Origin: Chloroflexota bacterium
GTDB taxonomy: Bacteria > Chloroflexota > Limnocylindria > Limnocylindrales > CSP1-4
Direction: 5' to 3'
Assembly: GCA_021802185.1 (NCBI GenBank)
Contig: JAKAAV010000018.1
Span: 1 to 12,754, forward strand
Length of the DNA stretch: 12,754 nt
Shown: positions 1,301-12,569 of the stretch, piece after piece
Layout: each line of letters opens with the position of its first letter
Position numbering within the stretch: the stretch's first letter is position 1
Notes under the pieces: model-generated
What the model was told of the DNA's origin: nothing
The model's input: only the letters and a program-made list of their open reading frames with translations
The model's database searches: none
Made by a program: the position numbers and the translations under genes

Positions 1301-2932
1301 CTACCCCGCGAATCGTTCGCCGGGCAGGACGATGCGCCGCCCGCGCTGCGGCATCACGCCGGCACCGATCGAGGCGCCGGGCACGCGGCGCTGCTCGCCG
1401 GGCCCAGGGTGCCGTTCGTCACGGGCGCGGCGTTGCTCCCCGGGGCTCCGGCCCTGCTCCGGATGCGCTCCCGCCGGGCCAGACCGCTGGCGGCTGCTGG
1501 GCCGGTCGGCTTCGTGGCGAACGGGGGCTTCGCGCGGGGCGCGCGGGGCGGCGGTCTGACGGCCCACCGGAGCGGGGTGCATCGGCGACGGGGCCCTGCT
1601 GCCACCGGCCCTCTGCGGCGCCGGGCGCTCGCGGCCGCGCTCGGGGATCGGGCGACGCGAGGCAGCACGGTCGCCATCCGGCACGCGACGCGGCTGTGTT
1701 CCGGCCCCGCCGCTCCGGAGCCGGATGGGCTGGGGTCGCTCATTCCGGTCTGGCTCGAAGCCCGCCACGACCTCGGCTGGGATCCATCGGCCGAGCAGGA
1801 CCTCGATCTCACGGAGCAGCTTCGCCTCGTCCACGCACACGAGCGAGATTGCCTCGCCCGGTGAGCTCGCGCGTCCGGTACGACCGATCCGGTGGACGTA
1901 GTCGGCGGGAACCATCGGGAGCTCGTAGTTGACGACGTGGGGCAGCGATTCGATGTCGAGCCCGCGGGCCGCGAGGTCGGTGGCCACGAGCACCGCGACG
2001 CGTCCCGACTTGAAGTCGGCGAGCGATCGGACCCTCCGCGACTGGCTCTTGTTGCCGTGGATGGCGGTCGCGTCGATGCCGTCGCTCACAAGCTGCTCGG
2101 CCAGCCGGTTCGCGCCGTGCTTCGTCCGCGTGAACACCAGCGCCTGCTGCACGCGTCCAGACCGGATGAGGTGCGACAGGAGGGCCCGCTTCCGGTCCCG
2201 ATCGACCCGCAGCACGACCTGGGACACGAGGTCCGGCGGGGCGTTGCGCGCCGCGACCTCGACGGTGGCCGGATCATGCAGCAGCGCGGCAGCCAGGGAG
2301 CGCACGCCGTCGGAGAACGTGGCGGAGAAGAGCAGCGTCTGCCGCTGGCGCGGCAGGAGCGCCACGATACGCCGGATGTCGGGAATGAACCCCATGTCGA
2401 GGAGCCGGTCGGCCTCGTCGAGGACGAGGATGTCGACCGCCGACAGGTCGATCGTCGCCTGCCCGGAATGGTCCAGCAGCCGGCCGGGCGTCGCGACGAC
2501 GACCTCCGGGCTCCGGCGGAGCGCGCGTGCCTGTCCCTCGAACCCCACGCCGCCGAAGATGGCGGTCGATCGGATCGGCAGATGGGCACCGTACGTGCGC
2601 ACGCTCTCCTCGACCTGGAGGGCGAGCTCGCGCGTGGGCTCCACGACGAGGATCCGGACTGGGCGGCGATGCGACCCATCGTGCCGCGCCGCCCCCGTCG
2701 GCAAGTCCGCGCGATGCGCCGACTCCCCCGGCGACCCCGTCGTGAGCATTTGCAGGATCGGCAGGACGAACGCCGCGGTCTTGCCGGTGCCCGTCTGGGC
2801 GGAGGCGAGGAGGTCGCGACCCGCGAGGACGAGGGGGATCGCCTCCCGCTGCACGGGGGTCGGGTCGAGATAGCCCTCGTCGGCGACGGCGTGAAGGAGC
2901 TCGGGCGCGAGCCCGAGGGTGGAGAAGGACAT
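1301..2932 (-). CDS. DEAD-box ATP-dependent RNA helicase (RhlE/CsdA-like)
   Basis: A 543-aa superfamily 2 RNA helicase that unwinds short RNA duplexes using ATP, typically in ribosome assembly, mRNA decay and cold adaptation. Motifs in order: Q motif with GYLDPTPVQ (20-28), Walker A AQTGTGKT (45-52), PTRELA (99-104), GG (127-128), TPGR (148-151), DEAD (172-175), SAT (203-205), a second RecA domain with VFTRT (266-270), [10 protein letters not shown] (317-326) and HRIGRTGR (347-354). The core ends near residue 395. The last 145 or so residues are an Arg/Pro/Gln/Gly-rich disordered tail, typical of RNA-binding extensions. A non-conserved insert of about 25 residues lies between Walker A and PTRELA. 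Start ATG 2932 is supported by AGGAG 9 nt upstream and by alignment of the Q motif. The same frame is open far upstream, but that is GC-driven and not coding. RhlE, CsdA and DbpA subtypes cannot be separated by eye. Confidence 0.97.
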
Positions 2933-3049
2933 GTCGGAACGCTCCTGGCTGGCCCTCCCGCTTCGGCGGGGTCCGGTCAGGGCGTTGGGGATCGAGCGAA
3001 AGGTGGACGGGCGCGGACCGGGGCGTCGTCCTGAACCGAGAGAAGCATA
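2933..3049 (-). promoter_or_regulatory. Candidate promoter and structured 5' leader of the DEAD-box helicase
   Basis: A -10-like TATGCT (minus strand, 3049 to 3044) lies about 112 nt upstream of the helicase ATG, with no clear -35. The leader contains a hairpin at 2957-2970 (5-bp arms CCCGC/GCGGG around a 4-nt loop), just upstream of the AGGAG ribosome binding site. The leader length of about 100 nt resembles those of the cold-shock and 116-aa genes in this window. It also contains a C-rich CGATCCCC block like one in the cold-shock leader. Overall it does not share their four-block signature. Confidence 0.3.
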
Positions 3050-3091
3050 CCCGACAGGCCCCGCGACCGCCGTGATCGCCGATCGCGCTCC

Positions 3092-3334
3092 TCGGGCTAC
3101 GGCCTCGCGTCGTCGATCTTCACGAGGGACGTCGACGTCGCGATGCGCGCGTGCCGCGAGCTGAAGTTCGGCGAGACCTACGTCAACCGCGAGAACTTGG
3201 AGAACACGCAGGGGTTCCACGCGGGGTGGCGCAAGTCGGGGCTGGGCGGGGCGGACGGCAAGCACGGCGTGCTCGAGTACACGCGGACGCACGTCGTGTA
3301 CCTGCAGTACGACGCGGCCGCGGGCCGCGCATAG
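3092..3334 (+). pseudogene. C-terminal remnant of an AldA-like aldehyde dehydrogenase
   Basis: About 80 codons match the extreme C-terminus of the lactaldehyde/glycolaldehyde dehydrogenase (AldA-type) branch of the NAD-dependent aldehyde dehydrogenase superfamily. The sequence starts at [19 protein letters not shown] and continues through [12 protein letters not shown], then [19 protein letters not shown] and HVVYLQ, ending at TAG 3332-3334. The AldA signature [18 protein letters not shown] and terminal VVYLQ make the identification firm. The remaining 400 or so residues, including the NAD-binding domain and catalytic Cys, are missing. Upstream of about 3092 the frame turns into Arg/Ser-rich sequence with no dehydrogenase similarity, and the helicase leader begins close by. 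No internal stop or frameshift is present, so the truncation may be recent or a short product may still be made (ATG 3143 is in frame). No catalytic activity is possible from this piece. Confidence 0.87.
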
Positions 3335-3384
3335 CCGGTGGATTCGGCGCCGTCCGTGCCGTAGCGGCGCCGACCGTCGCGACA

Positions 3385-3418
3385 GAGGGGATCGGTCGGG
3401 GTACTGCCCGATCCCCTC
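3385..3418 (+). terminator. Terminator-like hairpin after the aldehyde dehydrogenase remnant
   Basis: A perfect 11-bp inverted repeat, GAGGGGATCGG (3385-3395) and CCGATCCCCTC (3408-3418), with a 12-nt loop. It begins 50 nt after the remnant's stop codon. The downstream side is C/T-rich (CCCCCGTCTCTCC) but not a real U-tract. The likely reading is the original terminator of the dehydrogenase gene. It also insulates the DUF554 gene downstream. Confidence 0.6.
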
Positions 3419-3513
3419 CCCCGTCTCTCCTGCGGGCCGCTCCTGGAGCCGAGTCTCGTCGGAGCGACCGCTCCACTGTCCGTTTTGATCCCAGGGCGAG
3501 CGGCCGGGGCCGG

Positions 3514-3519
3514 TATGAT
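3514..3519 (+). promoter_or_regulatory. Candidate -10 box for the DUF554 gene
   Basis: TATGAT, close to the sigma-70 consensus and unusually AT-rich for this window, lies 50 nt upstream of the chosen GTG start. No good -35 hexamer stands at 16-18 nt; TTGATC at 3485-3490 is too far (23 nt). It is supported only by base composition and position. Confidence 0.3.
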
Positions 3520-3568
3520 CGGTTCCCGTGCACCACGCCGTCCCGGGTGCCGCCAACCCGGAGGTCGT

Positions 3569-4318
3569 GTGGTCGGTCTCGGCACGCTGCTCAACGTGGC
3601 CGCGATCCTCGTCGGCTCGGCCGTCGGCGTCCTGTTCGGCGAGCGCCTGCCGGCGCGGACGCACCGCGTGATCACCGACGCGCTTGGCCTCGTCGTCCTC
3701 GTCATCGGCGGCCTGGACGTCGCGGCTCTCCTCGACCCTGATTTCGTCGCCGCAGTCGGAGCCCGGGTGACGCTCCTCATCGTCCTCGGTGCGCTGCTCA
3801 TCGGCGGCATCTCGGGTTCGCTTCTCGATGTCGAGGCGCGACTCGACGGGATCGGCGGGAAGCTGCAGCACTGGCTGGTTCGCGGTGCATCCGGCGGCAC
3901 CGAGTCGCGAGAGCGCTTCATCGAGGGGTTCGTCGACGCGTCGCTGCTCTTCTGCATCGGCCCGCTCGCTGTCCTCGGTCCGCTGCAGGACGGCCTCGGG
4001 CGCGGCATCGACCAGCTCGCCCTCAAGTCCGTCCTCGATGGCTTCGCGGCGATGGCGTTTGCCTCGACCCTGGGATGGGGCGTCGCCGCGTCCGCGCTGT
4101 CCGTCGGCGTGTGGCAGGGCACATTCACGATCATCGGAGCACTCGCCGGGTCGCTCCTGCCGGCAGCCGCCGTCGCCTCGCTCACGGCGACCGGCGGCGT
4201 CCTCCTGCTCGGCGTGGGGCTCCGGCTGCTCGAGGTACGGCGCGTTCCGGTCGCCGACCTGCTGCCGGCGCTGCTCGTCGCCCCGCTCCTCACGCTGGTG
4301 GTCAGCCGGCTCGTCTGA
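3569..4318 (+). CDS. DUF554 family multipass membrane protein
   Basis: A 249-aa integral membrane protein of the DUF554 family (YqgA/YdfK-like), whose substrate is not established. Family hallmarks: [18 protein letters not shown] (3-20) in the first helix, [14 protein letters not shown] (37-50), and the central block [20 protein letters not shown] (121-140). [20 protein letters not shown] (150-169) and [11 protein letters not shown] (180-190) follow. About six or seven hydrophobic segments are visible. A short hydrophilic loop (about 86-118) separates the N-terminal helices from the conserved block. I chose GTG 3569 because GGAGG (3560-3564) precedes it by 4 nt and the family normally starts with M-x-G-T-x-x-N. 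The longer open frame from 3485 adds a non-conserved Arg/Gly-rich stretch. Length is close to the usual 220-250. It converges with the UvrD-like gene, leaving 117 nt in which I see no clear terminator. Confidence 0.93.
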
Positions 4319-4435
4319 CCGACGCGACAGGGTCTGCGGATTCCGGGCGGTCGATCGGGATGGCTGTGGGCGCGACGTCCGGTTCGCACGCCTCGTCGTG
4401 GCGGGCAGAACGGTCCTCGAACCACGCACCCCGGT

Positions 4436-6616
4436 TCAGCCTGCGTCTCGGATGAGTTCCACGATCTCGGGGCCGTAGTGCTGGACGCGCGATGGGCCGA
4501 AGCCGCGCACGCCGGCGAGGGTCGCGATGTCGGCCGGCCGGATCGCTACGAGCGCCGCCAGCGTCGCGTCCGGGAACACCACGTACGCGGGCACACCGTC
4601 GAGCTGAGCGCGCTCCCGGCGCCAGGCGCGCAGGGCGGCCGCGAGCCGCACATCGGCCTCCGGCGGCGCCTCGATCCCGGACGGTGACGACGCGCCAGGG
4701 ATGGATGCCACCGCCGACGCGTGCCGCCCGCCACGGCGTGCCGGCGCGCCGGCCGATGGTGTCGCGGACCCGGGCGCCCGACGGCGCGCGGGGACCCGAG
4801 GGTCAGGACGGGTCGCGGACACGCGACGCGCCGGGGGCGGCGCGAGCGCTCCGAGGAAGCGCGAGCGCTGGCGCGCACTCTCCCGCCCGGTCTGTCCCGC
4901 CCGCTGGTGGGCCCATCCGAGCCACAGCACTCGCCGCGCCCTCGTCAACCCGACGTACAGGAGGCGCCGTTCCTCGGCCAGAGCCTCGGGATCGGCCAGC
5001 GCCTGGCGGATGGGCAGCGTGCCCTCCTCGAGCCCGGGCAGGAGGACCGCGTCCCACTCGAGCCCCTTGGCCCGGTGGAACGTGAGCAGTTCGACGCCGC
5101 CGGCGCCACGGGTGCTCCCCTCCTCTGCCGCGCGGGCCGAGAGGTCGTCGGCGAACGCGCCGAGGTCTGCCTCGGGGTGCGCAGCGACGAACGCCGCGGC
5201 GATCGCCCGCAGCGTCTGGCCCGACGCCTCGCGCTGGCGCGCGTCCTCGCCCGCGGCCGTCTCCTCGGCCGCGTCCGCGGCGACGACGTGCTCGATCACG
5301 GCCTCGGCACGGGCCAGCAGGCGCGCCGAGGTCGGCTCATCGGATTCGGCAGCGACGGGCCGGAGCCCGGCGCGTCGCAACTCGGCGATCACCTGCCTGA
5401 CCTCCGGCCGGGCGTAGAACCCGGCCCCGACGACCTGGTAGCCGATGCCGGCGGCGGCCAGCGCCGCCTCGAGCGACACGAGCTGCGCGTTCGTCCGCAC
5501 GAGCACGGCAACTTCCGAAGGGGCGATCCCTTCCCCCAGGTGGCGACACACCTCGCGCACGAGCGCCGCGAGCTCGGCCTCGGCGGTGGCGAAGGCGTGG
5601 ATCCCCGGTGCCGGGCCGCCATCCTGCATGGCCACGAGGCGCTTGGCTCGACCCTCCGATGCCAGCAGGCGGTTGGCCAGGTCGAGCACCTGGGGGCTCG
5701 AGCGGTAGTTGCGGGAGAGCGTCACCTCCCGGGCATCCGGGAATCGCGCCGCAAACTCGCGCAGGTAGGCGCTCGTTGCCCCGGTGAAGGAGTAGATCGT
5801 CTGGTCTTCGTCGCCCACGACGCACAGCTCGAGCCGCTCGCCCAGCCATGCGAGCAACACCGCGTAGCCCAGGGCGTTGGTGTCCTGGAACTCGTCGACC
5901 GTGAACCAGCGGTACCGCGCGCGGACCCGGGCGGCCACCGCGTCGTTCGACCCGATGAGCTCGAGTGTGCGCGCGAGCATGTCCTCGAAATCGATGGCCC
6001 CGGCTCGATCCTTCGCACGCTCGTAGTCGCGCCAGAAGGTGGCGAAGAGGGCGGGCGGCAGCGGGCCCGACCGCCCCGCTGCGACCAGGGGGTCGGCCTG
6101 ATACGTCGCGGGCGCGAGGCGCCGTACCTTGGCCCACTCGATCTCGTCGGCCAGGTCCTTGGCGGGTCGGAAGCGATAGCCGCCGGGGAGCGCCCGCGAG
6201 AGGGGCGCCACGAGCGGGAGCTTCGAGGCGAGGATCCTCGGGAACGGACGCGAGCTGACCTGCGGCCAGAAGTGGCTCAGCTGCCGGAGCGCGGCGGCGT
6301 GGAAGGTGGAGGCGGCGACGCCGGGTACCCCAAGGGCCCGAAGCCGCGCCTCCATCTCGCGTGCGGCGCGGTCGGTGAAGGTGACGACGAGCGCATGACG
6401 AGCATCCTGAGCGCCAGTCGCCGCGGCATATGCCACGCGTCGCGTGATGACCCGCGTCTTGCCGGAGCCTGCGCCGGCGTGGACGACGAGCGGCCCCCGA
6501 GTCAGCTCCACGGCGGCGCGCTGCTCAGGGTCGAGATCGACCAGGAGGTCCTCGGGCGAGGACCCGCGGCTTCGTGAAGGAGACTCGCGGCCGTGCCCGG
6601 GCACCCTATCTCTCAC
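4436..6616 (-). CDS. UvrD/Rep-family ATP-dependent DNA helicase with C-terminal HRDC domain
   Basis: A 726-aa superfamily 1A 3'-5' DNA helicase for repair or replication-fork processing, similar in layout to actinobacterial UvrD2. Motifs: Q motif LDPEQRAAV (28-36), Walker A HAGAGSGKT (46-54), Ia VTFTDRAAREM (78-88), Walker B/motif II DEFQDT (241-246), motif III VVGDEDQTIYSFTGA (266-280), motif IV LSRNYRS (300-306), motif V LTFHRAKGLEWDAV (511-524), and motif VI LLYVGLTRAR (552-561). After a Pro/Arg/Ala-rich linker (about 590-655) comes an HRDC domain (about 656-725) with PAYVVFPDATLAALV and GFGPSRVQHYG. Mycobacterial UvrD2 has a four-cysteine motif between helicase and HRDC; this linker has no cysteine. 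The start is uncertain: GTG 6616 gives the longest frame but has no Shine-Dalgarno, and GTG 6604 is an alternative with GAGAG nearby. The first 25 or so residues are not conserved. Confidence 0.96.
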   Translation of the reverse strand: MRDRVPGHGRESPSRSRGSSPEDLLVDLDPEQRAAVELTRGPLVVHAGAGSGKTRVITRRVAYAAATGAQDARHALVVTFTDRAAREMEARLRALGVPGVAASTFHAAALRQLSHFWPQVSSRPFPRILASKLPLVAPLSRALPGGYRFRPAKDLADEIEWAKVRRLAPATYQADPLVAAGRSGPLPPALFATFWRDYERAKDRAGAIDFEDMLARTLELIGSNDAVAARVRARYRWFTVDEFQDTNALGYAVLLAWLGERLELCVVGDEDQTIYSFTGATSAYLREFAARFPDAREVTLSRNYRSSPQVLDLANRLLASEGRAKRLVAMQDGGPAPGIHAFATAEAELAALVREVCRHLGEGIAPSEVAVLVRTNAQLVSLEAALAAAGIGYQVVGAGFYARPEVRQVIAELRRAGLRPVAAESDEPTSARLLARAEAVIEHVVAADAAEETAAGEDARQREASGQTLRAIAAAFVAAHPEADLGAFADDLSARAAEEGSTRGAGGVELLTFHRAKGLEWDAVLLPGLEEGTLPIRQALADPEALAEERRLLYVGLTRARRVLWLGWAHQRAGQTGRESARQRSRFLGALAPPPARRVSATRPDPRVPARRRAPGSATPSAGAPARRGGRHASAVASIPGASSPSGIEAPPEADVRLAAALRAWRRERAQLDGVPAYVVFPDATLAALVAIRPADIATLAGVRGFGPSRVQHYGPEIVELIRDAG

Positions 6617-8103: not shown

Positions 8104-8454
8104 CTACTTGACCCGCGTCGTTCGAGGGCCGAACAGCACGAGGATCCTCGATCCATCCGCGTCGATCCTCGGAATGACGCGCACCTCCAGCCTGTGCCGT
8201 CGCGCGACATCGCCGAGCGCGACTGCGAGGGCCGACAGGCCGCGGACTCCCGCGGCGCTCACGTCGCGGACGTCCGCCTCGAGGCTCGAGGCGGAGGCGG
8301 AGTTGCCCAGCCACACGTCGAGGACGCCGCTCGACCCGGTCACCCGCAGGAGCGGGCCCCTCGCTTCTTCGGCGGCCGGCGCAGCCGTGACTGCGGGACC
8401 GACCAGGGGGTGGACCGAGGCAGCGCCGATGGAAGAAGTGGTCTCGGTGGTCAC
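8104..8454 (-). CDS. 116-aa hypothetical protein sharing the cold-shock leader
   Basis: I do not recognise this family. The first 33 residues are Thr/Ser/Ala-rich and probably flexible. Residues 34-110 look like a compact alpha/beta domain: GPLLRVTGSSGVLDVWLG (33-50), a segment ending ADVRDVSAAGV (60-70), a helix GLSALAVALGDVARRHRLEV (72-91), then strands VRVIPRI and SRILVLFGP. A STAS- or ACT-like fold is conceivable but unproven. There are no cysteines and no membrane segment, so it is probably cytoplasmic. The GTG 8454 start is firm, with GGAGGT 5 nt upstream. The gene is monocistronic and divergent from the cold-shock gene. Its 5' leader is strikingly similar to the cold-shock leader, so common regulation is the best functional clue. 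Confidence 0.8.
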   Translation of the reverse strand: MTTETTSSIGAASVHPLVGPAVTAAPAAEEARGPLLRVTGSSGVLDVWLGNSASASSLEADVRDVSAAGVRGLSALAVALGDVARRHRLEVRVIPRIDADGSRILVLFGPRTTRVK

Positions 8455-8559
8455 GGGGGACCTCCACTTGCTTCCCGAAAAGCAGCAGAACGCACGGTCA
8501 CTTCGAGAAGGTGGACGACCACGCGGGGCTCCGCCGGAGCGACGGGCCCTGCGAGTGTA
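8455..8559 (-). promoter_or_regulatory. Conserved structured 5' leader of the 116-aa gene (copy 1)
   Basis: Minus strand, from an extended -10 (TGC then TACACT, 8562 to 8554) to the GTG. Blocks in order: a hairpin GCTCC/GGAGC (8540 to 8528), CGCGTGGTCG (8525 to 8516), CCTTCTCGAA (8511 to 8502), GACCGTGCGT (8499 to 8490), and TTCGGGAAG (8479 to 8471), then GGAGGT. CTTCTCGAA can pair with TTCGGGAAG (9 bp with one U-G). CCAC just outside can pair with GTGG, which overlaps the ribosome binding site. All four sequence blocks recur in the cold-shock leader. Confidence 0.7.
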
Positions 8560-8571
8560 GCACGGTCGCTG

Positions 8572-8603
8572 CTCGATTCGATCGGCACTCGATTCGGTCG
8601 GCA
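8572..8603. repeat. Two 16-bp direct repeats overlapping the expected -35 of the 116-aa gene
   Basis: CTCGATTCGATCGGCA (8572-8587) is followed directly by CTCGATTCGGTCGGCA (8588-8603), differing at one position. The pair begins 12 bp upstream of the TACACT -10 on the minus strand, where a -35 or activator site would be. That position, together with the lack of a recognisable -35, fits a protein-binding site, but binding is not shown. Confidence 0.75.
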
Positions 8604-8623
8604 CGCCCGTCATTCGACGGGCG
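8604..8623. repeat. Perfect 8-bp inverted repeat in the divergent intergenic region
   Basis: CGCCCGTC (8604-8611), a 4-nt ATTC loop, and GACGGGCG (8616-8623). It directly abuts the two direct repeats. There is no U-tract on either side. It could be an operator, a DNA cruciform or an RNA hairpin on a longer transcript. The rest of the stretch up to the cold-shock promoter (8624-8750) shows nothing I can name. Confidence 0.7.
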
Positions 8624-8750
8624 AACGCACCTCCGGCCGTCCGTCGGGCGCGGCGGGACTGCCGTCGGCGGGGACGACCGCGGACGTGCCGCGACGGCCC
8701 TCCCACGGCCCCTTCGGAGGCCACCTCGGTTCTTCCCGGAGTCACGCACG

Positions 8751-8779
8751 TTGTGCAATCGCTCCCGGAGGAGTACCGT
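8751..8779 (+). promoter_or_regulatory. Candidate sigma-70 promoter of the cold-shock gene
   Basis: TTGTGC (8751-8756) and TACCGT (8774-8779) with a 17-nt spacer. Transcription would start near 8786 and give a leader of about 93 nt. The distance from the -10 to the first conserved leader block (27 nt) is nearly the same as in the 116-aa gene (28 nt), which supports both promoter calls. Confidence 0.45.
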
Positions 8780-8878
8780 GGGTACCAGCCACAGCTCGTG
8801 GCGCTTCGCGTGGTCGATCCCCCCCTTCTCGAACAGACCGTGCGTGGTGTTTGGTTCGGGAAGAGGAAAGGGTCTGAC
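8780..8878 (+). promoter_or_regulatory. Conserved structured 5' leader of the cold-shock gene (copy 2)
   Basis: Hairpin GCCAC/GTGGC (8788-8802), then CGCGTGGTCG (8807-8816), CCTTCTCGAA (8824-8833), GACCGTGCGT (8836-8845) and TTCGGGAAG (8855-8863), then the purine-rich ribosome binding site GAGGAAAGGG (8863-8872) and ATG 8879. CTTCTCGAA (8825-8833) can pair with TTCGGGAAG over a 21-nt loop. The run of seven C's just before it could pair with the GGG of the ribosome binding site. Long structured leaders are typical of cold-shock mRNAs; this sequence is not one I recognise. Confidence 0.7.
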
Positions 8879-9082
8879 ATGACCACAGGTACCATCAAGA
8901 AGCTCGTCAGCGAGCGCGGCTTCGGCTTCATCGCCGCCGAGGACGGGAAGGAATACTTCTTCCATCGCGGCGGTCTCGAGGCTCCCCTGGACTTCGACCG
9001 CCTGGCCGGCGGCGAGCGCGTCTCGTTCGAAGTCGAGGCGAGCCCGAAGGGCCCGCGCGCCGTCAAGGTCAGCGAGGCGTAA
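8879..9082 (+). CDS. Cold-shock domain protein (CspA family)
   Basis: A 67-aa single-domain cold-shock protein that binds single-stranded RNA/DNA and acts as an RNA chaperone. It begins MTTGTIKKLVSERGFGFI, with the RNP1-type motif RGFGFIAAEDG and the RNP2-type EYFFHRGGL, where the common V-F-V-H is replaced by Y-F-F-H. It ends GPRAVKVSEA. The length fits the 65-70 aa family. ATG 8879 has AAAGGG 6 nt upstream; a longer in-frame start at 8753 would lie in the structured leader and is not credible. It is probably monocistronic, with a strong terminator-like hairpin 14 nt downstream. Leader features suggest post-transcriptional control shared with the divergent 116-aa gene. Confidence 0.97.
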   Translation: MTTGTIKKLVSERGFGFIAAEDGKEYFFHRGGLEAPLDFDRLAGGERVSFEVEASPKGPRAVKVSEA

Positions 9083-9095
9083 CTTCCGCTCGGCG

Positions 9096-9134
9096 GGATC
9101 CGTGCCGGTTGCTCCATGCGACCGACACGGATCC
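9096..9134 (+). terminator. Terminator-like hairpin after the cold-shock gene
   Basis: Arms GGATCCGTG (9096-9104) and CACGGATCC (9126-9134) pair perfectly. After one C/A mismatch the helix continues with CGGTTGC and GCGACCG (one U-G pair) around a 5-nt loop. It starts 14 nt after the stop codon. No strong U-tract follows. It overlaps the most upstream GTG of the downstream open frame, which argues against that GTG as a start. Confidence 0.65.
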
Positions 9135-9230
9135 AGTTCGGTGTGCCCTGCCGGCCTGCGCCGCAGGCGAGGGTCCGCCGTGCCGTCCCGCGCGGGCAGC
9201 GCGAGCCATCTGCCCGGGGCGCTACGTCCC

Positions 9231-10463
9231 GTGCCCGATGCCGCGACCGCCCTGCCGCCTGATGAGAGGAGCTACGCGATTCTGCAGACGGCGTTTGTTT
9301 CCACCTACGCGCCGCACCGCTGCGGCATCGCCACGTTCACGTACGACCTCTCGATGTCGGTCGGCAGCAGGCAGATCGTTGCCCTTCATCCGGTTGGCGC
9401 GCAGGAGACCTACCCGCCCGAGGTTCGACACCGCGTCCGGCGCGACGTGCTCGCCGACTATCTTGCGGTGGCCGAGAGCCTGAACCGGTCGACGGTCGAC
9501 GTCGTCTCGATCCAGCACGAGTACGGCATCTGGGGCGGACGGGACGGCGAATACGTCCTCGATTTCGTTCGCGCTCTGCGGATCCCCGTGGTCACGACGC
9601 TGCACACCGTGCTCCGCGATCCGACGCCGTCCCAACGCCGGATCCTCGTCCGACTCATCGCGATGTCGGCCAGGACGGTCGTGATGTCGCGTGCTGCCGC
9701 GTCGCTCCTCGCCGACGCATACGACGTCGATCCGGCTCGCGTCGAGATCGTGCCGCACGGCGTACCGGCCCTTCCCCTCGTCGACCCGGCCGTGGTCAAG
9801 CCACGCCTCGGACTGGACGGCCGGCTCGTGATCCTGAGCTTCGGCCTCCTCGGGCCCGGGAAGGGCTACGAGTCGGCGATCGCCGCCATGCCCGCGGTCG
9901 TCCGCCAGATCCCGTCGGCGCTGTACGTGATCCTCGGCGCCACGCACCCGGGGCTGCTGCTGCGCGAGGGTGAGGCATACCGCGAGAAGCTGCAGGCGAC
10001 GGCAGCCGCGCTGGGCGTGACCGAGCACGTGAGGTTCGTCGACCGGTTCGTCAGCCGTGCCGAGCTCGGGACGTGGCTCGAAGCCGCCGACCTCTTCGTC
10101 ACCCCGTATCCCAACCTCGACCAGATCGTCTCCGGGACGCTGTCGTATGCGATGGGCGCGGGCAAGGCGATCGTCTCGACGCCATACGCCTACGCACGCG
10201 AGCGGCTGGCCGACGGTCGCGGCGTCCTGGTGGCCCCAGGCTCGTCCGCGCTGCTCGCGGACGCATTCATCGACCTGCTTGGCGACCCCGTGCGTCGAGC
10301 GTCGATCGGCAGGCGAGCCTACGAATACAGCCGGGGGATGGTCTGGCCCAGGATCGGTGCGGAGTATCGCCGCGTCCTCGAGCAGGCCACGCTGCCACGG
10401 CCGGCCCTGCCGGTGACGCCGTCCGCCGTGCTGCCCGCGCACGTCGGGGTGCCGCGTGGCTGA
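9231..10463 (+). CDS. GT4-family glycosyltransferase (GT-B fold)
   Basis: A retaining GT-B glycosyltransferase that transfers a sugar from a nucleotide donor, probably at the cytoplasmic side. From the 9231 start: FVSTYAPHRCGIATFTYDL (22-40) is the N-terminal glycine-rich acceptor-side loop. SIQHEYGIWGG (93-103) follows, then IVPHGVPAL (173-181) at the inter-domain hinge, and SFGLLGPGKGYE (203-214) at the start of the donor domain. DQIVSGTLSYAMGAGKAIVS (297-316) is the donor-site segment, where the first Glu of the classic E-x7-E is Asp. The subfamily with HEYGIWGG and SGTLSYA is one I associate with GH130 neighbours. The start is uncertain: GTGs at 9102, 9141 and 9180 lie in or just after the preceding hairpin. 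The best Shine-Dalgarno (AGAGGAG, 9265-9271) points to an ATT at 9279. First gene of a three-gene operon. Confidence 0.93.
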   Translation: MPDAATALPPDERSYAILQTAFVSTYAPHRCGIATFTYDLSMSVGSRQIVALHPVGAQETYPPEVRHRVRRDVLADYLAVAESLNRSTVDVVSIQHEYGIWGGRDGEYVLDFVRALRIPVVTTLHTVLRDPTPSQRRILVRLIAMSARTVVMSRAAASLLADAYDVDPARVEIVPHGVPALPLVDPAVVKPRLGLDGRLVILSFGLLGPGKGYESAIAAMPAVVRQIPSALYVILGATHPGLLLREGEAYREKLQATAAALGVTEHVRFVDRFVSRAELGTWLEAADLFVTPYPNLDQIVSGTLSYAMGAGKAIVSTPYAYARERLADGRGVLVAPGSSALLADAFIDLLGDPVRRASIGRRAYEYSRGMVWPRIGAEYRRVLEQATLPRPALPVTPSAVLPAHVGVPRG

Positions 10464-11589
10464 CAGGCCCGTCCACGCGATCCGGCGGGAGCACCTGGAC
10501 GCGCTGACAGGCGAGCTCGGCATCTGGCAGCACGCCTCCGGTCCAACACCGAATCTGGCGTACGGGTACTGCACCGACGACGTGGCGCGAGCCCTGGTCG
10601 TGGACCTGCTGCATGCCCGGGAGCTTGGCTGGGCGGCGATCAGCGGGAGCGCGTGGCGTTCGCTTCGATTCCTGCGCGCCGCGTTCGATCGGGACGACGC
10701 GTGGTTCCGCAACTTCCGGAGCCGTGACGGTTCGTGGAGCCGCGAACGCGGATCCGAGGACTGCCAGGGCCGCGCGCTGCTCGCGCTCGCCTCTGCTGCC
10801 GGTGCAACCGGAGATGGCCGATTCGCCGACGTCGCCCGCGAGCTCCTCGCCGAGGCGATGCCCGCGGCCGGGCGGCTCCGCGCGCTGCGGGCGATATCCT
10901 CTGCCCTCATCGCCTGCGACCTCGCGCTCGACGCGCGTTCGCTCCCGTGGGGCCTTCGCGCCCAGATCGTGGCCCGGTTCGAGCAGCTGGCGGCGGCACT
11001 CCGGGACGGGTTCGTGGCCGTGGACGTCGCCTCGGACTGGCCCTGGCCGGAGCCGGTGCTGACGTACGAGAACGCGCTGCTTCCGCGAGCCCTGCTCGTG
11101 GCCGGTCGCCGGCTCGATGACGAGGCACTCCGACGAGCCGGTCGCGGCGTCCTGGCGTGGCTGCTTCGCGTGCAGACGACGGCCGGTGGGGCGTTCTCGC
11201 CGATCGGCAGCGATGCCTGGTGGCGGCGAGGCGGCGACACGCGCAGCCGCTTCGACCAGCAACCGATCGAGGCGACCTCGACCATCCTCGCCTGCGAGGA
11301 GGCGTTCCGGCAGTCCGGCGACAGGGCCGGTCTCGTCGCGATCGAGTCGGCCTTCGCGTGGCTCCTGGGCGCGAACGACCTCGGGATTCCCGTGGCGGTG
11401 GTCGAGACGGGCGGCTGCCACGACGCGCTGACCCCTCTCGGAGTCAACCTCAACCAGGGGGCCGAATCGACGCTCATGTGGCTCACCGCGCTCGAGCACG
11501 TGCGACGGCTGCGCCGCGAGTCGGGCGTGCGGCCGCAGTACCAGAGGCCGCGGTCGGTCGCCGCGGTCGCGGCGGGAGGCCGTTCATGA
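10456..11589 (+). CDS. Carbohydrate-active (alpha/alpha)-toroid protein of the GT4-GH130 operon
   Basis: A 377-aa, probably cytoplasmic, all-helical protein resembling the (alpha/alpha)6-barrel proteins often annotated only as hypothetical or glycosyltransferase-associated beside GT4 and GH130 genes. Recognisable segments: NLAYGYCTDDVARAL (33-47), EDCQGRALLALA (101-112), DWPWPEPVLTYENALLPRAL (194-213), FDQQPIEATSTILACEEAF (266-284) and GVNLNQGAESTLMWLTALEH (329-348). Conserved acidic residues such as Asp41/Asp42, Glu205 and Glu272 are candidate active-site residues, but catalysis is unproven. The GTG start overlaps the end of the glycosyltransferase gene by 8 nt, and its stop overlaps the next gene's ATG (ATGA), so translation is probably coupled. 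No signal peptide. It could be a glycoside hydrolase, epimerase-like enzyme or polymer-length determinant; the sequence does not decide. Confidence 0.9.
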   Translation: MADRPVHAIRREHLDALTGELGIWQHASGPTPNLAYGYCTDDVARALVVDLLHARELGWAAISGSAWRSLRFLRAAFDRDDAWFRNFRSRDGSWSRERGSEDCQGRALLALASAAGATGDGRFADVARELLAEAMPAAGRLRALRAISSALIACDLALDARSLPWGLRAQIVARFEQLAAALRDGFVAVDVASDWPWPEPVLTYENALLPRALLVAGRRLDDEALRRAGRGVLAWLLRVQTTAGGAFSPIGSDAWWRRGGDTRSRFDQQPIEATSTILACEEAFRQSGDRAGLVAIESAFAWLLGANDLGIPVAVVETGGCHDALTPLGVNLNQGAESTLMWLTALEHVRRLRRESGVRPQYQRPRSVAAVAAGGRS

Positions 11590-12569
11590 ACACCGGCGAC
11601 GAAACGCAGCTCTTCCACCGCCACCCCGGGAACCCGATCATCACGGCGGCGTCGCTCCCCTACCCCGCGAACGCCGTCTTCAACGCCGGTGTCGGTCGCG
11701 TGGGCGACGACACGATCCTCCTGCTGCGCGTCGAGGACCTGCGCGGCATCTCCCATCTCCAGGTGGCCCGGAGCGCCGACGGCGAATCCGGGTGGCGGTT
11801 CGATCCCGCCCCGCTGCTCGCCCCCGCGCTCGACCGCCATCCCGAGGAGGTCTGGGGCTGTGAGGACCCCCGCCTGACATGGCTGCCGGAGCTGGACGAA
11901 TGGGCGATCGCGTACACGGCGTACAGCCGGCGGGGTCCGCTCGTCTCCCTCGCGATGAGCACCGACTTCACCGAGGTTCGCCGGCTCGGTCCGATCATGC
12001 CGCCGGAGGACAAGGACGCCTCCCTCTTTCCGCGCCGGTTCGACGGCCGCTGGGCGATGATCCACCGGCCATCACCCCTTCGCGGAAACGCGCACATGTG
12101 GATGTCGTACTCGCCCGACCTCCGGCACTGGGGCGACCACAGCCTGCTCCTCGAAGCACGCGACGGAGCCTGGTGGGATGCGGGCAAGATCGGCCTCGGG
12201 CCGCCGCCCCTCGAGACGCGCGAGGGCTGGCTCGTCTGCTACCACGGGGTCCACACGACGGCGGCCGGGCCGATCTACCGGCTTGGCCTCGCCCTCCTCG
12301 ATCTCGAAGACCCGAGGGTCGTCCTTCGGCGAACCGACGAGTGGATCTTCGGGCCGACGGCGCCCTACGAACGGGTCGGCGACGTGAACATGGTCGTCTT
12401 TCCGACGGGGTGGGCGCACGACCCTGCCACGGACCAGCTCTCGCTCTACTACGGGGCCGGGGACTCCGTGGTGGCTCTCGCGACCGCGCGGCTCGACGAG
12501 GTCCTCGACTGTGTGATGGCTGCACCCGAGCCGCAGCACCGCCAGCGCGCGAACGGCGACGCCTCGTAG
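11586..12569 (+). CDS. GH130 family beta-mannoside phosphorylase/hydrolase
   Basis: A 327-aa five-bladed beta-propeller enzyme of glycoside hydrolase family 130, which cleaves beta-mannosides, mostly by phosphorolysis to mannose 1-phosphate. Hallmarks: HPGNPIITAASLPYPANAVF (13-32), VEDLRGISHLQVARSADG (49-66), CEDPRLTW (92-99) with the conserved general-acid Asp94, DKDASLFPRRFDGRWAMIHR (142-161), GKIGLGPPPLET (200-211), and the C-terminal YYGAGDSVVALATARLDEVL (288-307). Basic residues in DKDA and HRP, positions used for phosphate binding in the phosphorylases, are kept. This favours phosphorolysis (1,2-beta-oligomannan phosphorylase-like) over hydrolysis, but that is inference. ATG 11586 overlaps the preceding stop (ATGA) and has GGGAGG 7 nt upstream. 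Last gene of the operon. Confidence 0.95.
   Translation: MNTGDETQLFHRHPGNPIITAASLPYPANAVFNAGVGRVGDDTILLLRVEDLRGISHLQVARSADGESGWRFDPAPLLAPALDRHPEEVWGCEDPRLTWLPELDEWAIAYTAYSRRGPLVSLAMSTDFTEVRRLGPIMPPEDKDASLFPRRFDGRWAMIHRPSPLRGNAHMWMSYSPDLRHWGDHSLLLEARDGAWWDAGKIGLGPPPLETREGWLVCYHGVHTTAAGPIYRLGLALLDLEDPRVVLRRTDEWIFGPTAPYERVGDVNMVVFPTGWAHDPATDQLSLYYGAGDSVVALATARLDEVLDCVMAAPEPQHRQRANGDAS

Follow-up and report, generated by a model that had tools for sequence, protein, structure and literature searches.

The window (i.e. the whole 12,754-nt stretch of Chloroflexota DNA analysed here) contains two divergent genes with similar leaders. On the plus strand, csp (8879..9082) encodes a 67-aa cold-shock-domain protein (PF00313, E 1.7e-14). 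On the minus strand, P0001 (8104..8454) encodes a 116-aa protein of a conserved family of unknown function, without a Pfam match; its first ~5 codons (GTGACCACCGAGACC) are csp-like. Both readings agree with an earlier note on this DNA, which had described a cold-shock gene and a divergent gene of unknown function. Downstream of csp (9102–12569) lie a glycosyltransferase gene, a gene without a Pfam match and a GH130-type gene. Relatives of the glycosyltransferase occur in 56 of the 189 loci searched (some places being held twice), which suggests a conserved csp–glycosyltransferase neighbourhood. Adjoining helicase genes (DEAD/Helicase_C; UvrD with HRDC) occupy 1301–6616 on the minus strand and have no link to the leader.

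The two leaders share four blocks (39 nt) in the same order on opposite strands of noncoding DNA. On the plus strand these are CGCGTGGTCG (8807–8816), CCTTCTCGAA (8824–8833), GACCGTGCGT (8836–8845) and TTCGGGAAG (8855–8863), with a span of 57 nt; on the minus strand, blocks 1–4 lie at 8525–8516, 8511–8502, 8499–8490 and 8479–8471, with a span of 55 nt. Boxes resembling a -10 element, recognized from sequence only, precede block 1 by 27 nt in the csp leader (TACCGT, 8774–8779, plus) and by 28 nt in the other (TACACT, 8559–8554, minus); a promoter scan of window positions 8400–9300 gave no match to the sigma-70 consensus. The core of the csp element is ~57 nt long, and ~100 nt separate its -10-like box from the start codon. 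A hairpin lies just 5′ of block 1 in both leaders (8788–8802 on the plus strand, 8549–8526 on the minus strand). Blocks, order, spans, box distances and hairpins had all been reported in the earlier note and were recovered at the same places. Its opinion that the likeness is hard to explain by chance also holds: local alignment of the two leaders scores 32, compared with a maximum of 20 in 2000 dinucleotide shuffles (mean 10.0, sd 1.9). The best 110-nt segment of the window outside the minus leader scores 19 against the plus leader (segments taken every 55 nt on both strands, excluding those around the plus leader). Chance likeness is rejected on this score and on the csp linkage found by a pattern scan (see below).

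We then compared the occurrence of the leader among Chloroflexota. A query combining leader and csp matched 22 of 41 genomes searched, and all upstream regions of cold-shock genes inspected from this first search contain the blocks, with variation. Among the first 25 relatives, 12 lack a cold-shock gene, and no leader match in these 12 is stronger than E 0.006. R1, a model derived from 26 leaders and containing stem S2 alone, hit 90 of the 107 genomes in the window's family (f1) at E ≤ 0.01 (best E 4e-20) and 106 of the 177 in the class. Twelve low-scoring R1 matches (23.5–28.2 bits) are not followed by csp and were excluded as chance; the similarly weak matches L074, L133 and L142 do precede csp. 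Of 400 genomes drawn across the phylum, 58 were matched at E ≤ 1e-3 by a model with P0 and S1 (R2) and 70 by a model with P0 and S2 (R3). The R2 and R3 matches outside the class belong to families f9, f19 and f22: all 27 R2 matches precede a cold-shock gene, as do all 20 further R3 matches read (47 of 47 together). Two matches do not precede csp, one in the same class (L337) and one outside the phylum (L338).

A model-free scan for a DNA pattern made of parts of blocks 1 to 3, run on a collection of 84,980 species, gave at least 119 stretches, and 80 loci are among the matches listed. Within 140 nt downstream, a csp-like frame is present in 35 of the 35 Chloroflexi-type loci among the matches listed (titled Chloroflexi, Chloroflexota or, once, Dormiibacterota) and in 0 of the 45 others among the matches listed, two of which are titled only 'bacterium'; these 45 all lie inside open stretches of at least 219 codons. 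As a cross-check, all 34 R2 matches at E ≤ 1e-4 bear Chloroflexi-type titles. In the genomes of these 45 other loci, taken to represent other phyla, there was one model match (E 7.6e-4), which does not precede csp and is taken as chance. Within what was searched, the leader was found only in Chloroflexota.

A census of csp genes in the class by Pfam cold-shock-domain search (at least 150 gene rows) was compared with the R1 matches. In f1, the leader is present at 105 of 106 cold-shock-domain genes among the matches listed, and the sole exception lies at a contig end with 14 nt of upstream DNA. The f1 leader ends 18–26 nt before the domain match and thus about 11–19 nt before the start codon. 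In f5, 6 of 17 csp genes among the matches listed have the leader, and one of the 11 misses (L357) has a diverged copy recognizable by eye. In the sister family f4, the leader was found at 0 of 27 csp genes among the matches listed, in a match list that omits weak matches and with one match (G132, E 0.0097) not placed relative to csp; 13 of these 27 upstream regions were read by eye and contain no leader. The upstream regions of f4 csp genes L339–L351 differ, and by eye the leader is absent. By these counts and the matches outside the class, csp genes carry the leader as a rule in f1 and in part in f5; f4 apparently lacks it, and three more distant families have it. Sequence comparison thus indicates that the element is a conserved mRNA leader of Chloroflexota csp genes, and almost certainly a real RNA element. 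The further csp-linked copies that the earlier note had asked for in relatives are therefore plentiful, while the idea of a device of this one gene pair fails: the element is general to csp, and the minus copy is one of eight non-csp copies read.

These eight leaders precede six kinds of gene (P0001 and five others). The glycosyltransferase gene of L109 and the gene of L118, which resembles the gene at window positions 10456–11589, would be explained by csp loss, because their relatives lie downstream of csp in the window. In two congeners, the leader precedes zinc-ribbon genes (L079, 1227–1318; L081, 1236–1321) and has lost S2: P0, S1 and the start of L3 are intact, and S2 is no longer complementary, which may reflect decay or a separate role of S1. 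Behind the leader in L083 and L132, from two genomes, is a gene for a 66-aa protein that has a CVCGWHG motif and begins with six csp-like residues (MSNGTM); S2 of these two leaders is changed but largely paired. The gene behind L069 is unplaced. In L113, the leader precedes a csp-like frame outside the Pfam cold-shock-domain count. The earlier note had named csp, zinc-ribbon and helicase genes as possible followers; csp is confirmed, zinc-ribbon genes occur in the two genomes with S2 lost, and no helicase gene stands directly behind a leader among the loci read. Three non-csp kinds have csp-like first codons (GTGACCACCGAGACC in P0001, MSNGTM and VTxG), as if the leader had moved with its initiation region.

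A very large database contains 41 proteins of the P0001 family, including one that is nearly identical to P0001. Eighteen aligned relatives are alike over ~80 C-terminal residues (core LDVWLG...LEADVRxVS...ALGDVAxxHKLEVRVIPR) and differ at the N-terminus. The predicted structure (mean pLDDT 73) has a strand-strand-helix-helix-strand-strand core and 30 unordered N-terminal residues; compared with the PDB, it has no fold match at E ≤ 0.001 (best 0.17, POTRA domains). The leader before P0001 is a one-off among the family members seen. Two relatives lie near csp, one upstream of csp on the csp strand (G002, L191) and one in G092 (L060), and neither has a leader-model match of its own. A special link between csp and P0001 was rejected on this ground, and because none of the other non-csp genes that were read after a leader is related to P0001. 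The minus leader matches csp leaders from other genera best (E down to 1.6e-15), and the csp next to it does not figure among the 30 matches listed. A recent local copy was accordingly rejected, and this resemblance suggests that the minus leader is probably the remnant of an older second copy of csp rather than a fresh duplicate of its neighbour. A 13-nt match (ACTTCTTCCATCG) common to the minus gene and the csp codons possibly stems from a deletion inside a csp copy.

We then focused on the structure of the leader. Block 1 (CGCGUGGUC) pairs with block 3 (GACCGUGCG), with a tandem G-U/U-G in mid-helix, and block 2 (CUUCUCGAAC) pairs with block 4 (GUUCGGGAAG). The earlier note was right about the presence and order of the blocks but had missed this complementarity: they are arms of a pseudoknot and not separate motifs. 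In the csp leader, the P0 hairpin (GCCAC/GTGGC; 8788–8802), variable in sequence, fixed in place and supported by folding and covariation, is followed by (i) S1a (block 1, 8807..8815), the 5′ arm of stem 1; (ii) the C-rich loop L1 (8816..8824), complementary to the Shine–Dalgarno region; (iii) S2a (block 2, 8825..8834), the 5′ arm of stem 2; (iv) S1b (block 3, 8836..8844), the 3′ arm of stem 1; (v) the loop L3 (8845..8853); and (vi) S2b (block 4, 8854..8863), the 3′ arm of stem 2, which immediately precedes the Shine–Dalgarno region (AAAGGG, 8867..8872, from sequence). The S1 arms are supported by pair counts and the S2 arms by folding and pair counts; folding and energies favour the role of L1, and a coverage count speaks against it. 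In the minus leader, P0 (8526..8549) is assigned by folding, and S1a (8517..8525), S2a (8502..8510), S1b (8491..8499), S2b (8471..8479) and the Shine–Dalgarno sequence GGAGG (8461..8465) are read from the letters themselves. The arm order S1a, S2a, S1b, S2b gives two interleaved helices, as in an H-type pseudoknot, and comparison among relatives makes it very probable that the leader forms one.

Compensatory changes of the kind that the earlier note had proposed to look for occur in all three helices, with support weakest for S1. So that the counts would not be circular, the alignment used for either pseudoknot stem had been fitted with that stem left out; 12 low-scoring R1 matches without csp and identical leaders were dropped before the 116-row alignment was made. 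Self-inverse artefact rows (L071:1410 in A3, L184:1281 in A5) are included in the main S1 and P0 counts and removed in a recount. For P0, 26 of 26 segments fold into a hairpin (-6.7 to -23.4 kcal/mol); GC-rich pieces fold easily, so the pair counts weigh more than the fold energies. All seven P0 pairs are changed on both sides in some rows of A3, and the energies of own versus permuted arms give z -12.5. For S2 on A4 (fitted to P0 and S1), 94.3% of cells are paired, 7 of 10 pairs have double changes, and 31 double-change cells compare with 9.0 in shuffles; 17 of the 31 represent one change, in f22 and four scan loci of untold family. Own S2 arms also outperform permuted ones (z -5.5).

For S1 on A3, 96.0% of cells are paired and five pairs have double changes, compared with 0.8 in shuffles (0 of 500); without the artefact row, four double-change cells are left (L116, L021, L131 and L070). 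Covariation score and pair types on A3 are not above shuffles (110 and 80 of 500 at least as high as observed). On the phylum-wide alignment A5, 93.8% are paired, 11 double-change cells compare with 1.3 in shuffles, and the score is reached by 1 of 500 shuffles; the number of pair types is not above shuffles (222 of 500 at least as high). Eight of these 11 double changes are U-A to C-G (seven f19 rows and one f1 row), so independent S1 events on A5 are few. The S1 permutation test is null (z +0.3), probably because S1 hardly varies, and S1 and S2 together on the first 26 rows have no support (score below 498 of 500 shuffles). The centre of S1 is weak: of 89 rows, 72 and 74 have G-U and U-G there, and 14 and 9 have no standard pair; loops of other sizes occur elsewhere. 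Folded singly, leaders are not clearly more stable than their shuffles (z -0.96 and -1.55). The nested minimum-energy fold contains S2 and lacks S1, because the method cannot draw S1 together with S2. One csp leader (L142) has no clear S2, and L3 differs in both length and sequence from one part of the phylum to another.

The leader matches no Rfam family. Rfam 15 gave no match in the window at E ≤ 1, and 11 diverse leader loci (E ≤ 0.5) gave one match to RF01766 (20.7 bits against a cut-off of 78), which covers csp coding DNA and beyond (L172, 1246–980) and overlaps the leader only at its final bases. Membership of a known Rfam family was thus rejected, in line with the earlier note, which had recognized no named cold-shock leader or riboswitch. 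We also found no description of this csp leader in the available portions of open-licence PMC papers (including PMC4166951, PMC2864571, PMC9450479, PMC4496569 and PMC9947658).

Cold-shock control by mRNA structure is known best from E. coli cspA, whose long element runs ~60 nt into the coding region. Its leader is reported to adopt alternative folds, with a ribosome-binding site that is blocked at 37 °C and accessible at 10 °C, and a cold form stabilized by a pseudoknot (PMC4496569). The Chloroflexota element resembles the cspA thermoregulator in being the 5′ leader of a csp gene; comparison supports a pseudoknot in it, and gives modest and mixed support to an alternative pairing. It differs in its ~57-nt core, its unrelated sequence and a score below the RF01766 covariance-model cut-off. 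By analogy, we hypothesize that it would work like E. coli cspA without belonging to RF01766. H-type pseudoknot leaders such as those of r-protein S15, preQ1-II and SAM-II have two interleaved stems beside the ribosome-binding site; the Chloroflexota leader shares this layout and differs in sequence and target. The Chlorobi-RRM motif (RF01697) leads genes for RRM RNA-binding proteins. It appears in PMC2864571 as a structured-RNA candidate from a single phylum, identified by comparative analysis. The present leader is likewise a one-phylum candidate; it differs in phylum and protein family and does not match RF01697 in Rfam.

We propose that the leader is a cis-acting RNA in csp mRNA, in which P0 followed by S1a-L1-S2a-S1b-L3-S2b would set translation initiation. 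In a first state, S1 and S2 would form together and L1 would be kept off the ribosome-binding site. In a second state, S1 would be unpaired, leaving L1 and the 3′ half of S1a to pair with the Shine–Dalgarno region. Cold would favour the longer S1, so that the site opens and more Csp is made. The minus copy would be a leader of this kind that stands, together with its initiation region, in front of an unrelated gene. We regard translational control by the leader as likely from the comparative evidence, and the whole explanation (structured csp leader, pseudoknot, L1/Shine–Dalgarno switch and cold-on direction) as somewhat probable on balance. The direction of the switch and the temperature signal are a guess, to which model energies lend weak support.

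Several observations bear on this proposal. In 123 of 133 csp leaders, the 3′ end of S2b lies 11–20 nt ahead of the called start, with the Shine–Dalgarno region in between; the other 10 have closer called starts, some of which are probably upstream in-frame codons. Both window leaders, when folded to their nested energy minimum, have L1 paired with the Shine–Dalgarno region. Across 63 diverse leaders, the pairing of L1 with its own Shine–Dalgarno region beats all 1000 permutations (z -3.8), whereas five control pairings fail the same test (z +0.1 to +2.5; e.g. L3 +2.2 and P0 +0.9). These 63 were thinned by similarity from 160 distinct leaders, and the automatic placement of S2, visibly off in several, was kept. 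The set of 160 excludes 18 loci (the 12 low-scoring matches, L337, L338, the duplicates L191–L193, and L142), identical leaders, and leaders with N or shorter than 75 nt; an L1/Shine–Dalgarno leader set left out L142 and L130. Measured against nearest relatives, L1 pairing gives -0.47 (se 0.23) in f1 and f5 (L1 alone, -0.32, se 0.22) and -1.04 (se 0.47) in the other families, i.e. about two standard errors. L1 covers at least 4 nt of the Shine–Dalgarno zone in 76 of 106 f1 and f5 leaders (permuted 0.71) and in 13 of 27 leaders of the other families (permuted 0.45), with no excess in either. An alternative L1/Shine–Dalgarno fold that excludes S1 thus has modest and mixed comparative support. 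According to model energies for 133 leaders, S1 has a mean advantage over the L1/Shine–Dalgarno pairing of -4.6 kcal/mol at 37 °C and -6.0 kcal/mol at 10 °C, and is ahead at 37 °C in 88% of leaders. Since S1 is already ahead at 37 °C, a temperature flip is not predicted outright and the cold-on switch is put forward as a hypothesis, which by these energies could apply although we would not bet on it.

A possible alternative, which we hold with reserve, is autoregulation: Csp would bind its own leader or melt the pseudoknot and so repress or boost its own translation, as r-protein leaders do. The element tracks csp, an RNA-binding family, almost one to one within f1, its blocks show conservation not only of pairing but also of sequence, and E. 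coli CspA is reported to act on its own mRNA (PMC9947658). The eight copies before six kinds of non-csp gene argue against autoregulation, although a trans-acting Csp would permit them. It seems rather unlikely that the pseudoknot is simply repressive, i.e. that the knot itself blocks the 30S site until cold, protein or ligand opens it, with the L1 pairing incidental. The S2b ends given above, mostly 11–20 nt before the start, fall within the usual ribosome footprint, and L1 coverage of the Shine–Dalgarno zone is no commoner than in permuted pairs; by contrast, the L1/Shine–Dalgarno energies beat all permutations and those of the controls do not.

We consider a metabolite riboswitch improbable. 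The conserved S1 and L3 nucleotides would form a ligand pocket, with csp as one target, and strong nucleotide conservation within the class, a compact H-type architecture and copies before glycosyltransferase and zinc-ribbon genes would suit it. However, the targets have no evident common pathway, csp-linked copies dominate, and neither the length nor the sequence of L3 is constant across the phylum. A DNA-level element (binding sites of one regulator or a duplicated promoter region), for which the strongly conserved blocks at a fixed distance from the -10-like box would speak, is very improbable, since stem changes are compensated on both sides and the sequence of P0 is free yet always forms a hairpin. 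Accordingly, of the two readings in the earlier note, a shared homologous RNA element is upheld by the copies before csp, the compensatory changes and the lack of an Rfam match, and binding sites for one regulator are disfavoured in their purely DNA-level form.

In brief, comparison points to a real structured csp leader with a pseudoknot, whose function is probably translational. If this is true, a short pseudoknot in an environmental phylum would have the same target as that of cspA, and 160 natural variants would make the switch mutationally testable. It would also reveal whether leader-RNA control in the cold has a single origin or several. More tentatively, the leader may be a minimal, independently evolved cold switch serving csp in several Chloroflexota lineages, with a pseudoknot shorter than 60 nt that exposes the ribosome-binding site at low temperature, and a portable cassette that puts other genes under cold-shock control. 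The copies before other genes would then be natural fusions, with which to ask what cold-shock control is worth to the cell.
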